A stretch of DNA of 64,000 nucleotides from NCBI GenBank assembly GCA_030429565.1, contig JAUIFE010000001.1:992001-1056000 (forward strand), given 5' to 3'. The number at the start of each line of letters is the position of its first letter. Position 1 is the first letter of the stretch. The stretch is from Holophagae bacterium. Its GTDB lineage: Bacteria; Acidobacteriota; Holophagae; Acanthopleuribacterales; Acanthopleuribacteraceae. Positions 54,784 to 59,547 of the stretch are shown here, in pieces. The translations under genes were made by a program, and so were the position numbers. The notes under the pieces are model-generated. The model was not told where the DNA came from. It saw only the letters and a program-made list of their open reading frames with translations, and did no database searches.

Positions 54784-57700
54784 TTATTCCATCGCTTGAG
54801 CGTCCTGCGCACAACGGAAGCCAATTTGATCGCTGCAAGTGCGCGGATCAGCACCGTTACGAGCGTAAACGGTGATATCGCGACCACGACTGCGGAAGGA
54901 CCCACCGCGATAGCCCTTGGCGGGGCCGGCCTCGTCATTAAAGGGATTCTCCTCGCCGGCGCGCGGATAGAAGTCTTCGGCATAGGTATCGGCCACCCAT
55001 TCCTCGACGTTACCCAAAATTTCAAAGACACCGTAACCGTTCTCAGGAAAGCTACCAACCTTGGCCGGACGTTTCTCGGGGTAAAACTCGTAAACAGCTT
55101 GCTTGGCGTCCGAGTAATCGCCCCACCAGTACTTCTGGCCTCTGGTGTTGCCGGTCGCGGCTTTTTCCCATTCCGCTTCAGTGGGCAAACGCTTGCCTTT
55201 CCAGCGAGCATAAGCTTCGGCGGCAAACCAGGAAACATAGGTTACAGGTCGATCAAGATCATCAGAACTGGGTCGGCCACCTTTCCAATGCGCCAAGTAA
55301 TTGCCGTCTTGTTTATCAGCGCCAACGCGACCGGGCGCCCATTGGGGATTGGCCTGAACGAAATCGTAGTACTGCTGGTTGGTCACCTCGTGTTTGTCGA
55401 TGTGGAAGGAGCCCAAGTAAACACGACGACGCGGCTTGGTGGCCCGAAAACGACTGTTCCCCATGACGAAAGAGCCGAGCGGCACATAGGTCATGCCGAC
55501 CGGCGGTGACCACTCACGATACTTATGCCATTGAGCACGCGTTGCTTCGGAGCCATTGATCTGATAAATCTGCTTGTAGATATCGGCGACTTCGCGAAAA
55601 CGTCCAGAAGCGCGTTTCTCGTCGGCAAGAGATTCCAAAGCCTTGATTTCTTTGCCAATCCGCTCCATCGCCTCATTGGCCAGTTGGTGACCCGGTTCGA
55701 GTTCGTAAAGACGATTGGCTAAACTGAACTGTTGGCCAAAATTTTTCCTAGAAATGGCCCGCTCAAGCGCACGGGTTGTTTCGCTAATTTCCTGGCCAAG
55801 TTCCTCTTCACGCACTTCCTTGGCCAACCGTTCGATTTTTTTGTCGCCAGGCGCCAATTCAAGCGCAGCCTTGTAGGAATCGCGCGCCAAGTCGTATTGC
55901 TTACGCGAAACAGCATCCTGCCCCGAGCTAACCAAACCCTGCAAAACCAGGGGCTTGGTTTTCTTCAAATAAGCCGAGGCGGGATCGATTTGGGATAACT
56001 CAATCACGAAGGGCACGACCTTAACAAAGTCGCCGCGACCGTAAAGGGTTTCGATTTTTTCCTGGAGTGTCCCCGACTGCTCCTCTTTCAACTTCTTTTT
56101 GAGCTGGTTGTACTGATCGCGCACCTCGACGTCACCCTTGTCGGCACTGTTCAAGGCGGCCAGAATTTTCAGCGCAGGTAATTCGCGGCCACTGCTCAGC
56201 ATGCTGTCAATTTGCTTGAGGCCCTCTTTGCGAATCTCGTCGGCGGCATTTTTGGCGACGCCGTTTTGTGGTTCGATTTTGAGGACGCGGTAGTAGGTTC
56301 CATAGGCATCGTTTTTGCCGTCAACCAGCGCGTTCCCTTCCTCGCGATAAGTGCTCGCACGATTGAGGAGTTCAGCGACCTGGGCCGTCTGTTCCGTGAT
56401 TTTTTGTTCCGCTTTGGTCTTGAGCGCCGTTAACCGATTCTCCATGCGCGAACCGGGATCATCACTGAGGATGGTCTCGATACGGCCAAGCGCTTCCCGG
56501 TATTGGGTGCCGTCAATCAGGTTTTGAACCTGGGCAATGGTTTCCTCTTCGCGTTTCTTGCTGGCACTGCCGGCAAACCACCACAGAATCCCACCGAAGG
56601 CAATCACCGCCAACCCAATAGTAAGGCCGAGCATTTTGGGATCAAAACGGCCGACGCGCCGTGCTTTGACCACTTTTTGTTGGGCGGGCGCCCCATCCTC
56701 GCTTTCGGCTTTGGCTAAATTATCCGCCAAACCCTTGGCGCTGGCGCCACCACTGTCGGGGACCGCTTCAAAACTAAAGGCGCCGTCGTCGGTGGAAACA
56801 CTGTCCCCGCCACTGCCGGTATCACCCGCAAAGGGATCGTCGAAACCGCTGTCACCAAAGTCGCTAAAGTCATCAGCGGGAGGCGTTTGAGCAGCACCGG
56901 TTGCCGCCGCGGCAGGCGGTTCATCAACCGCGTCAAAATTAAACTCACCGCCGCCTTCGTCAAAGGAAAAGTCGGCGCCTGCATCAGCTTCATTTCCGGT
57001 GACACCAAAGTCAAAGCTGCCGGCGGCACCCGCCGGATCGCCGCCGAAATCGAAGTTTTCGCCGCCGCTGTCGTCGCCACCGAAGTTGAAGGGATCGTCA
57101 CCGCCACTTTCCTGGCCAAACCCAAATTGATCGCCGCCTTGGTTGCCTTGCGCGAACTGATCACCTTCGTTTTCATTAGTGAAGCCAAACTGATCCCCAC
57201 CGGCCTCGCTACCAAACCCAAACTGATCACCGCCATCGTCATCGACACCAAAATCAATGCCGCCGACATTGGCGTTTTCGCCAAAATCAAATTCAGACCC
57301 ACCGTGGGTCACAGCCGGATCGGGTGCGTCGAGCTCGGGTGCTGCCGCGCCGCCGCCAAGCGTCTGATCGAAAGCCGGGTCGTTGGCAAAGTCCATCGGC
57401 ACCGAGGACCCACCACCCAAGCCGAAATCGGCATCATCATCCGCGCCGGCGTCGTCGCCGCCGAAATCAAAACCACCGCCACTGTCGGGTTCATTCCCAA
57501 ACTCGAAACCGGCATCGTTGTTACCAAAGGCGTTGTCACCTATGTCGGAACCCTGGTCGGCGCCAAAATCAAAACCGCCGCCGTTGTCAGCGTCGCCACC
57601 AAAGTCAAAACCACCGAGCGCATCACCGCCGGCGGGTTCGGCACCGCCGCCAAAATCAAATCCATCGCCGCCACCCAAATCACCGCCGCCACCGGCGTCC

Positions 57701-59547
57701 TTGCCGAAGTCAAAACCCTCGGTGCCGCCAAAGTCACCGCCGCCGGCGTCCTTGCCGAAGTCAAACCCTTCGGTTCCCGCGAAATCGTCGCCCCCGCCGC
57801 CAAAGTCAAAGCCGGCGTCATTGCCACCGAGATCGCCCTGCGGCGATCCGCCAAAGGGGTCGTCGCTCGGCTGATCGCTTTTGTCGTTGCCAAAATCAAA
57901 ACCGTCGTTTTTACCACCCATAGCCGTGCTCTCCGTTTTCGCAGGCGGTTCACCGCCGAATTCAAAACTATCCGGGGCGGCTTCCGGCGCAGGCGCCGCC
58001 TTGGCAGTCGCACCAAAATCACCGATCCCACCCTTGGCAGGGTCGGCCCCGGCGGCAAGTGCTTCCTCGGCGGCAGATGCAAAACCAAAGTCTTGCCCGC
58101 CAAGATCAGAACTGGGCTCACTGCCAAAGGTTTGCGAGTCACCCGCATCACCGAGGCTGAAATTACTCAGATCTTCTTCGCCAAAATCCAGGCCCGCGCT
58201 CAGTTCGTCGGCCCCGAACAAGCCGTCGTCCTTGTCTTCCGCGACCCCGCCGAAATCCAGGCTGCCCGACGCGGACAGAGAGTTATCGCCGCCATGGCGC
58301 GCGCTATCTGAACTGTCGAGTCCGAAATCGGCTTCGCCCATTTGTGCGAAATCCGCCCCACCGTTATCCATACTACCGCCGGCCGAGCCGAAATCGAGGT
58401 GATCGAGATCATTGCCGGCCTGGAACCCGTTGCTTTGCCCATCGTCGACACGCCGGGTTTCACTGCCCCACGGCTCTTCCTCAAGCGCTAATCCGCCGCC
58501 GCGCGCTTGTTCACGCAATTGGTTAAGCGGCTGCGCGCGCACGGTGCGTTCCATGTCGAAACTGCCAAAATCGGCCCCCGCGCCCGGTTCATCAAAAGCA
58601 GCCAATGCCTCGCTTTCGCTGGGCAAACTCATGGCTGTATCGGAAGCTGTATCTTCATTGTCGTCGCCGTTGCTCGGCACAAAGGCCTCAACCCCGCTGG
58701 GTAGCGCCACGACCGCTGCTTCGTTGGGCAGCTTGGCTTGGGTTTTGGCGATGTCCTTGTAAAACTCAATCGCATTTTGGAAACGCCCTTCAGGTTGGCG
58801 CGCCAACGCTCGCAAAATCGCGTGATTGAGTTCGGGCGGCACTGCTGGATTTAATTCCGCGGGCGACACCGGCGTTTGGTTAAAAACCGCTTCTTGAAGG
58901 GTCGCATAATCGTTGCCTTTAAAGGGTGGCTCACCTGTGACCAGTTCGTATAAAATGGCGCCGGCCGCGTAAATGTTGGCGCGAATGTCCGTGGTTTCCG
59001 ACTGACGCAGGCGCTCCGGTGAAAAGTAACGTCCGTAATACATCTTCTCGAGCGGCGTAAACATTTGTTCACGGGCCTGCTGCAACACATGGCCGAAACC
59101 CCACACGCGCACTTCGCCCTCCGGCGTCACCACCACATTAGAGGGGTTGAGAAAGCGGTGAAGGTTGCCTTCCGAATGAGTGTAACCAATGCCTTTCAGA
59201 ATCCCCTTGAGGATTTCGACGCTTTGAATAAGCGGGAAACGGCCGTGGGTGCGCATCATACTGTCGAGCGTTTGGCCCTCCACATACTCGCGCACCAAAA
59301 AAATGCGGCCTTCGCCTTCGATAACATTAATCAAGGCGATGACATTGGGGTGTTCGAATTTAATCACCTCAACCGCGTCCTCGGTCAGCTTGCGACGCCA
59401 AGCGACATCGCCGCCTAAGCGCGGTGAAACACCCTTGAGAACAAACTTGGAGCCATCCGAGACATGTACAGCCAAATAGGTCTCACAGGCGGCGTTGTTC
59501 CCCAGCATTTGCACAATTTTGAACTGATCAATCGTTGCACCGATCAT
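54784..59547 (-). CDS. pseudokinase, FG-repeat linker, membrane span, SUMF-type domain
   Basis: Approximate order in 1587 residues. A protein-kinase fold (1-265) has lost catalysis: the HRD motif is HRF (NLHRFLNPSN), DFG is GFG (VWGFGH), and no GxGxxG loop is seen, but the ATP-site Lys (FVLKGV) and FSPERL remain. Residues 330-920 are an acidic, Gly/Asp/Phe-rich disordered region with roughly three dozen FG dipeptides, mostly (F/D)xFG. One membrane span lies near 970-992. A Lys/Glu-rich helical region follows (995-1330). The C-terminal SUMF/FGE-sulfatase domain (1342-1585) has YVPLGSFVMGN, RLPTEAEWEKAA and LGNVEEWVAD, but not the catalytic cysteine pair. The kinase part should face the cytoplasm and the SUMF part the periplasm. 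GGGAG lies five bases before the ATG. Confidence 0.85.
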   Translation of the reverse strand: MIGATIDQFKIVQMLGNNAACETYLAVHVSDGSKFVLKGVSPRLGGDVAWRRKLTEDAVEVIKFEHPNVIALINVIEGEGRIFLVREYVEGQTLDSMMRTHGRFPLIQSVEILKGILKGIGYTHSEGNLHRFLNPSNVVVTPEGEVRVWGFGHVLQQAREQMFTPLEKMYYGRYFSPERLRQSETTDIRANIYAAGAILYELVTGEPPFKGNDYATLQEAVFNQTPVSPAELNPAVPPELNHAILRALARQPEGRFQNAIEFYKDIAKTQAKLPNEAAVVALPSGVEAFVPSNGDDNEDTASDTAMSLPSESEALAAFDEPGAGADFGSFDMERTVRAQPLNQLREQARGGGLALEEEPWGSETRRVDDGQSNGFQAGNDLDHLDFGSAGGSMDNGGADFAQMGEADFGLDSSDSARHGGDNSLSASGSLDFGGVAEDKDDGLFGADELSAGLDFGEEDLSNFSLGDAGDSQTFGSEPSSDLGGQDFGFASAAEEALAAGADPAKGGIGDFGATAKAAPAPEAAPDSFEFGGEPPAKTESTAMGGKNDGFDFGNDKSDQPSDDPFGGSPQGDLGGNDAGFDFGGGGDDFAGTEGFDFGKDAGGGDFGGTEGFDFGKDAGGGGDLGGGDGFDFGGGAEPAGGDALGGFDFGGDADNGGGFDFGADQGSDIGDNAFGNNDAGFEFGNEPDSGGGFDFGGDDAGADDDADFGLGGGSSVPMDFANDPAFDQTLGGGAAAPELDAPDPAVTHGGSEFDFGENANVGGIDFGVDDDGGDQFGFGSEAGGDQFGFTNENEGDQFAQGNQGGDQFGFGQESGGDDPFNFGGDDSGGENFDFGGDPAGAAGSFDFGVTGNEADAGADFSFDEGGGEFNFDAVDEPPAAAATGAAQTPPADDFSDFGDSGFDDPFAGDTGSGGDSVSTDDGAFSFEAVPDSGGASAKGLADNLAKAESEDGAPAQQKVVKARRVGRFDPKMLGLTIGLAVIAFGGILWWFAGSASKKREEETIAQVQNLIDGTQYREALGRIETILSDDPGSRMENRLTALKTKAEQKITEQTAQVAELLNRASTYREEGNALVDGKNDAYGTYYRVLKIEPQNGVAKNAADEIRKEGLKQIDSMLSSGRELPALKILAALNSADKGDVEVRDQYNQLKKKLKEEQSGTLQEKIETLYGRGDFVKVVPFVIELSQIDPASAYLKKTKPLVLQGLVSSGQDAVSRKQYDLARDSYKAALELAPGDKKIERLAKEVREEELGQEISETTRALERAISRKNFGQQFSLANRLYELEPGHQLANEAMERIGKEIKALESLADEKRASGRFREVADIYKQIYQINGSEATRAQWHKYREWSPPVGMTYVPLGSFVMGNSRFRATKPRRRVYLGSFHIDKHEVTNQQYYDFVQANPQWAPGRVGADKQDGNYLAHWKGGRPSSDDLDRPVTYVSWFAAEAYARWKGKRLPTEAEWEKAATGNTRGQKYWWGDYSDAKQAVYEFYPEKRPAKVGSFPENGYGVFEILGNVEEWVADTYAEDFYPRAGEENPFNDEAGPAKGYRGGSFRSRGRDITVYARNGADPRTCSDQIGFRCAQDAQAME

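Follow-up and report, generated by a model that had tools for sequence, protein, structure and literature searches.

The gene at positions 54784 to 59547 of the analyzed window (64,000 nucleotides on contig C54 of the 10.4 Mb genome of a marine acidobacterium) encodes a membrane protein in which a pseudokinase is joined through an acidic, phenylalanine-rich linker to a transmembrane segment (TM), a TPR-like helical region and a SUMF domain. Orthologues with the same domain order were found in all seven Acanthopleuribacteraceae genomes searched, the host genome included, and the kinase-linker-TM-SUMF arrangement noted in an earlier sequence-only reading of this one protein is thus kept across these genomes. 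The protein is best explained, with confidence near the halfway mark, as a single-pass, sensor-coupled, non-catalytic membrane scaffold that descends from a kinase-TM-TPR-SUMF receptor kinase and whose linker acts as a multivalent docking tether. Both the layout kinase-TM-TPR-SUMF and pseudokinases as such are already known; the combination of a conserved pseudokinase with an FxF-enriched acidic linker in which phenylalanine is nearly the only aromatic is unusual. The nearest match of the host genome is Acanthopleuribacter pedis, which belongs to the same genus in the grouping used, and the family includes very large animal-associated genomes (PMC8841776). Every element described in the sequence-only reading (kinase fold, HRF, GFG, FG-rich acidic linker, one span, helices and SUMF) was recovered, and the features are as follows, all on the minus strand.

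54784..59547 (-): whole gene, 1587 aa with an ATG start, encoding pseudokinase, acidic F-rich linker, TM, TPR-like region and SUMF (open frame, orthologues)
58738..59547 (-): pseudokinase domain, residues 1-270 (Pfam Pkinase 9e-31; AlphaFold2 pLDDT 91.7; PknB fold match)
59152..59160 (-): HRF replacing HRD, residues 130-132 (HRD Asp absent in 7/7 orthologues)
59092..59100 (-): GFG replacing DFG, residues 150-152 (DFG Asp absent in 6/7 orthologues)
56677..58722 (-): acidic F-rich linker of disordered composition with FG/FxFG motifs, residues 276-957 (composition statistics)
56764..56793 (-): juxtamembrane motif TDDGAFSFEA with invariant DGxFxF, residues 919-928 (D921, G922, F924 and F926 the same in 7/7)
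56575..56631 (-): single transmembrane segment, residues ~973-991, preceded by the basic stretch KVVKARRVGRFDPK (hydropathy, 7/7 orthologues)
55507..56568 (-): TPR-like helical domain, presumed periplasmic, residues ~994-1347 (weak TPR HMMs; AlphaFold2 helices; Foldseek TPR matches)
54808..55497 (-): SUMF/FGE-like domain of C-type-lectin fold lacking the catalytic cysteines, residues 1351-1580 (Pfam 1e-48; alignment to FGE 6muj)

The head of the protein (residues 1-279) was predicted as a confident kinase fold (AlphaFold2 with seven orthologues, pLDDT 91.7, pTM 0.90), bearing out the fold proposed from the letters alone, and its best Foldseek matches were to Mycobacterium tuberculosis PknB (TM-score ~0.8, E 1.2e-23); the Pfam Pkinase match covers residues 10-253 (E 9e-31). 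The HRD aspartate is lost in all seven orthologues (HRF, HHF, HVL and HFA-type sequences), none of which has an intact HRD, and the DFG aspartate is lost in six, with G004 still carrying DFG. The glycine loop, LGNNAACETY in the focal protein, is degenerate in 7/7, while the beta-3 lysine (VLKG) is retained in the focal protein and in 4/7 overall; G005, G006 and G002 carry Glu or His at this position. Having lost at least one of the beta-3 Lys, HRD Asp and DFG Asp, the focal head and its orthologues all qualify by sequence as pseudokinases. The sequence-only reading had additionally proposed that the head binds ATP; with the HRD aspartate and the glycine loop gone in 7/7 and the beta-3 lysine replaced in 3/7, the ATP site is not conserved family-wide, and ATP binding as a family trait is unsupported.

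In a kinase tree, the focal kinase domains formed one clade (support 100) on a long stem. The head is among the best conserved parts of the protein (87% identity to the A. pedis orthologue, rough dN/dS 0.06), as compared to 81% and 0.05 for the SUMF domain and 65% and 0.11 for the linker, which is the least conserved part; because dS is saturated, these dN/dS values are only indicative. The conservation of the head and its low dN/dS suggest that it is under selection without canonical catalysis. From the alignment, the simplest history would be that catalysis was lost in the family ancestor and that the nucleotide site then eroded further in one branch. The host genome contains more than 90 kinase-domain matches, including three other kinase-SUMF fusions with intact HRD/DFG (L035-L037) and one degenerate fusion; the latter (L039, G000:C72:87500-91500) is a 797-aa protein with HGN and LDF motifs whose kinase has a very long branch and is placed well away from the focal head in the tree.

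Unusual activities persist in some pseudokinases. That the head is an unorthodox active enzyme with residual or different transferase activity appears unlikely: the retained beta-3 lysine in 4/7 and the DFG of G004 favor such activity, as does the SidJ precedent (PMC6858067), but the HRD aspartate and glycine loop are gone throughout and the beta-3 lysine has become Glu or His in three orthologues. The degenerate catalytic motifs would also be expected of a decaying or mis-sequenced kinase gene, an explanation that is hardly credible and was ruled out by full-length frames in seven genomes sharing the same loss, together with purifying selection on the domain.

Inactive SUMF domains are common in kinase fusions and the one found here would not be noteworthy alone. 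The domain was detected by Pfam (FGE-sulfatase/SUMF, residues 1351-1580, E 1e-48), and both active-site cysteines of FGE are missing on alignment to the Streptomyces-type FGE 6muj, in line with the inactivity claimed for it previously. The region C-terminal to the membrane span gave only a weak Pfam TPR signal (around residues 1210-1235); in the AlphaFold2 model of the TPR+SUMF construct, it forms a TPR-like helical superhelix (pLDDT mostly ~90 over construct residues 1-350). Within the same model the helices are good and the SUMF part is poor (pLDDT largely <50), and the proposed sensor role therefore draws on knowledge of the SUMF family. The order of kinase, one TM, TPR-like helices and C-terminal SUMF is that of a single-span receptor, and the single hydrophobic span at ~973-991, seen in all seven orthologues, agrees with the single-pass topology proposed earlier. 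By the positive-inside rule (a basic stretch precedes the TM) and by analogy to Planctomycetota Ser/Thr kinases (PMC11032199), the SUMF domain is inferred to lie outside the cytoplasm.

Ser/Thr kinases that carry TPR or SUMF domains in the periplasm, beyond one membrane span, are common, for example in the Planctomycetota (PMC11032199), and SUMF/FGS domains have been proposed as ligand sensors or binders in conflict systems (PMC10907252, PMC7159879); combined, these precedents lead to the receptor-like scaffold reading. The Planctomycetota kinases (PMC11032199) share the order of kinase, single TM, TPR-like helices and SUMF with the focal protein, as does L051 (22-2736), which is encoded in a small genome from a different acidobacterial family and consists of a zinc ribbon, an intact kinase, a TM, a TPR-like region and SUMF. 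This protein was recovered in a TPR-SUMF profile search of the phylum, in which the matches were mostly SUMF-only and no equally strong match over the TPR region was found outside the family. In L051, the GxGxxG, HRD and DFG motifs are intact and the linker is short and charged without an FG array, whereas the focal protein has a degenerate head and an F-rich acidic linker. Chlamydial proteins with a C-terminal NirV/DUF323 domain (PMC1262709) are likewise kinase-SUMF/DUF323 fusions but have been described as kinases, while the focal head is a pseudokinase. The reviewed pseudokinase families ActPs1-3, GLW, CP1, DYD and DLHK (PMC12599244) resemble the focal protein in having lost catalytic residues and in often carrying a TM C-terminal to the kinase; a word search of the main text of that review gave no mention of sulfatase/formylglycine domains or acidobacteria. 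When the focal motif set (HRF, GFG, VLK) is placed beside the published descriptions of these families, DLHK has GFG but keeps the HRD aspartate and lacks a TM, and the focal protein is the opposite on both counts.

The linker accounts for most of the FG dipeptides in the protein, with 34 of 37 falling in residues 276-972, which matches the earlier estimate of about three dozen. In shuffles that preserve linker composition, these 697 residues contained 15.2 +/- 3.2 FG (maximum 26 among 2000), giving a 2.2-fold excess over the shuffle mean that exceeds what composition would produce. Similarly, 21 FxF were counted in the first 682 linker residues as compared to 7.0 +/- 2.3 after shuffling, or approximately 3 times as many. 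The linker has no FF, no Tyr and a single Trp; its FG density is 4.9 per 100 residues, charged residues make up 24.6% (D+E 22.1%, net charge about -0.19 per residue) and FILVM 17.6%. In a charge-hydropathy analysis it falls on the disordered side, which is weak evidence for disorder because parts of the folded TPR-SUMF region are also near the line. On the opposite strand, an antisense open frame of 474 aa (window 56887-58311, plus strand) faces the FG tract and is most likely a by-product of repetitive codon composition rather than a gene.

Across the family, the tract is present in close relatives, and its size divides the orthologues: four large genomes have linkers of 656-731 residues with 34, 36, 23 and 40 FG, whereas those of three smaller genomes are 246-287 residues long with 4, 5 and 2 FG. 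A long FG array is therefore characteristic of certain lineages. All seven linkers are acidic (net charge magnitude 0.14-0.20 per residue), contain 7.4-10.4% F with almost no Tyr/Trp and no FF, and have more FxF than their shuffled mean, which the short ones exceed by just a few pairs. One FDF (residues 659-661) and the DGxFxF located ~45 residues N-terminal to the membrane span are invariant in 7/7. Among aligned linker residues, F was conserved at 84%, G at 75%, D at 62% and S at 48%, with F also above A and E, a ranking to be read cautiously, since F-to-F matching is favored when low-complexity sequence is aligned. The earlier description of an FG-rich disordered linker thus holds for the FG excess and the disordered composition, but FG is not its essence, with only 2-5 copies in three orthologues; the shared core is an F-rich acidic linker with DGxFxF near the membrane, to which the FG array is secondary.

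Recent tandem expansion of DNA was ruled out as the origin of the FG array, since TRF detected a single 2-copy repeat in the array DNA and the 16 FxFG motifs are written with 11 different codon spellings. A docking motif shared with other proteins was also rejected because DGxFxFE matches elsewhere in the family genomes were unrelated proteins, several of them probably out of frame. A pattern search for FDFG arrays in 396 genomes of the phylum gave, outside the host genome, only two single matches (the same scale as the control), and the search is weak because TTC was required at the first F. The ten host-genome matches among those listed correspond to an acidic repeat of (ESEVEA)n type encoded by the other strand; at L071 (around G000:C54:756023-756927), an 18-bp tandem array encodes such an acidic protein, and its opposite strand reads FDFG and so imitates an FG array when patterns are searched.

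The sequence-only reading had likened the linker to the FG chains of nuclear pores. Like the FG nucleoporins Nup98 and Nsp1, the focal linker has many FG/FxFG motifs, F as nearly the sole aromatic and a disordered composition; unlike them, it is strongly acidic, highly charged, lower in FG density and bacterial. The phase-separating FG domains of Nup98 contain 6.3-10.3 FG per 100 residues and 13-17% FILVM, with about 2.5% of residues charged (D+E 0-0.5%); for Nsp1, the FG part that is regular and highly charged yielded no particles at 10 uM (PMC4283134). With 4.9 FG per 100 residues, the focal linker lies below the Nup98 density range, and with 24.6% charged residues it lies far from the nearly uncharged Nup98, which makes the nucleoporin analogy weak. 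In composition, it would at best resemble the charged, non-cohesive FG type; the FG count collapses in three orthologues, and the nuclear-pore resemblance looks superficial. A literature search, with subscription papers mostly outside its reach, found nothing relevant on a bacterial FG-repeat kinase.

These comparisons bear on how the linker may work. A nucleoporin-like FG phase, with linker chains associating with one another at the membrane as a condensate or a selective layer, would fit an FG density and FILVM content that approach those of Nup98 as well as the near-exclusive use of F among aromatics, and acidic disordered regions of the bacterial proteins SpmX and PopZ can condense (PMC8849385). 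It is nonetheless improbable, given 22% D+E and a net charge of -0.19 per residue against 0-0.5% D+E in cohesive Nup98, the highly charged Nsp1 part that formed no particles (PMC4283134), and the 2-5 FG of three orthologues; the hydrogel proposed earlier is accordingly not supported. By analogy, the linker may still condense with a basic partner or in the manner of SpmX (PMC8849385). Equally improbable is the related idea that the FxFG array evolved nucleoporin-like multivalent binding independently, forming a dense, acidic, F-rich layer on the inner membrane face that would gather partner kinases upon engagement of the outer SUMF domain. A passive entropic spacer or bristle is possible, on the doubtful side: the linker would be filler, acidic and rich in glycine, for which length and composition count and the FG motifs do not, with FG counts arising from G-rich expansion beside F. 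The range of length (246-731 residues) and of FG (2-40) between genera, the low conservation of the linker relative to the other parts and the nearly constant net charge magnitude of all seven agree with a spacer, but the simultaneous FG and FxF excess over shuffles, the conservation of F above G and D, its status as nearly the sole aromatic in all seven linkers and the invariant DGxFxF argue against it.

For the non-catalytic scaffold, the observed fold, degeneration, domain order, orthology and linker statistics can be extended to a proposal for topology, ligand, partner and docking. The ancestor would have been a receptor kinase of the ordinary kinase-TM-TPR-SUMF type, and its catalysis would have been lost ahead of the diversification of the family. 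The TPR-SUMF part would bind a ligand or partner in the periplasm, and the cytoplasmic kinase-fold head would have a binding or allosteric role without catalysis, probably toward one of the cell's many active Ser/Thr kinases or toward the targets of these kinases. The acidic linker would act as a long tether along which several short docking motifs built on phenylalanine (FxF/FDFG and the juxtamembrane DGxFxF) concentrate the partner locally, with motif number amplified in large-genome lineages; phase separation of the linker alone would not be required. A works-like analogy is provided by SpmX, a Caulobacter membrane protein whose acidic disordered region recruits and tunes the kinase DivJ (PMC8849385); SpmX has other domains and a proline- and acid-rich disordered region, and homology is not claimed. 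Points against the scaffold are the DFG retained in G004, the unusual activities kept by some pseudokinases and the conservation of neighbors only within the genus: in the search for an operon partner, gene neighbors were common only to two Acanthopleuribacter genomes and not to the other family genera.

With a head conserved without canonical catalysis and a tether ranging from 2 to 40 FG within one family, these proteins offer a natural series for exploring the role of a receptor pseudokinase. Should the F motifs be docking sites, the partner bound there would show how kinase-rich bacteria organize signaling with dead kinases and multivalent tethers; if they are not, the linker cautions against a nucleoporin-like interpretation of FG dipeptides where linkers are acidic and rich in glycine.

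The genome G006 has another long frame (L033, 10759-13341, minus strand) that matches the focal protein with 25% identity over 235 residues; it is convergent with the focal gene of that genome, and the ends of the two share a few bases. The identity of the focal SUMF gene as a target of a diversity-generating retroelement was rejected, as no reverse transcriptase was found on the contig of the window (C54); RVT_1 matches were limited to contigs C2, C30, C40 and C61. On C61, a cluster of paralogous SUMF genes (L040, G000:C61:1500-8800) has 300-nt direct repeats that are 72-86% alike, a 53-bp tandem array and a reverse-transcriptase match within the cluster (C61:3594-3923), and is a possible diversity-generating retroelement.
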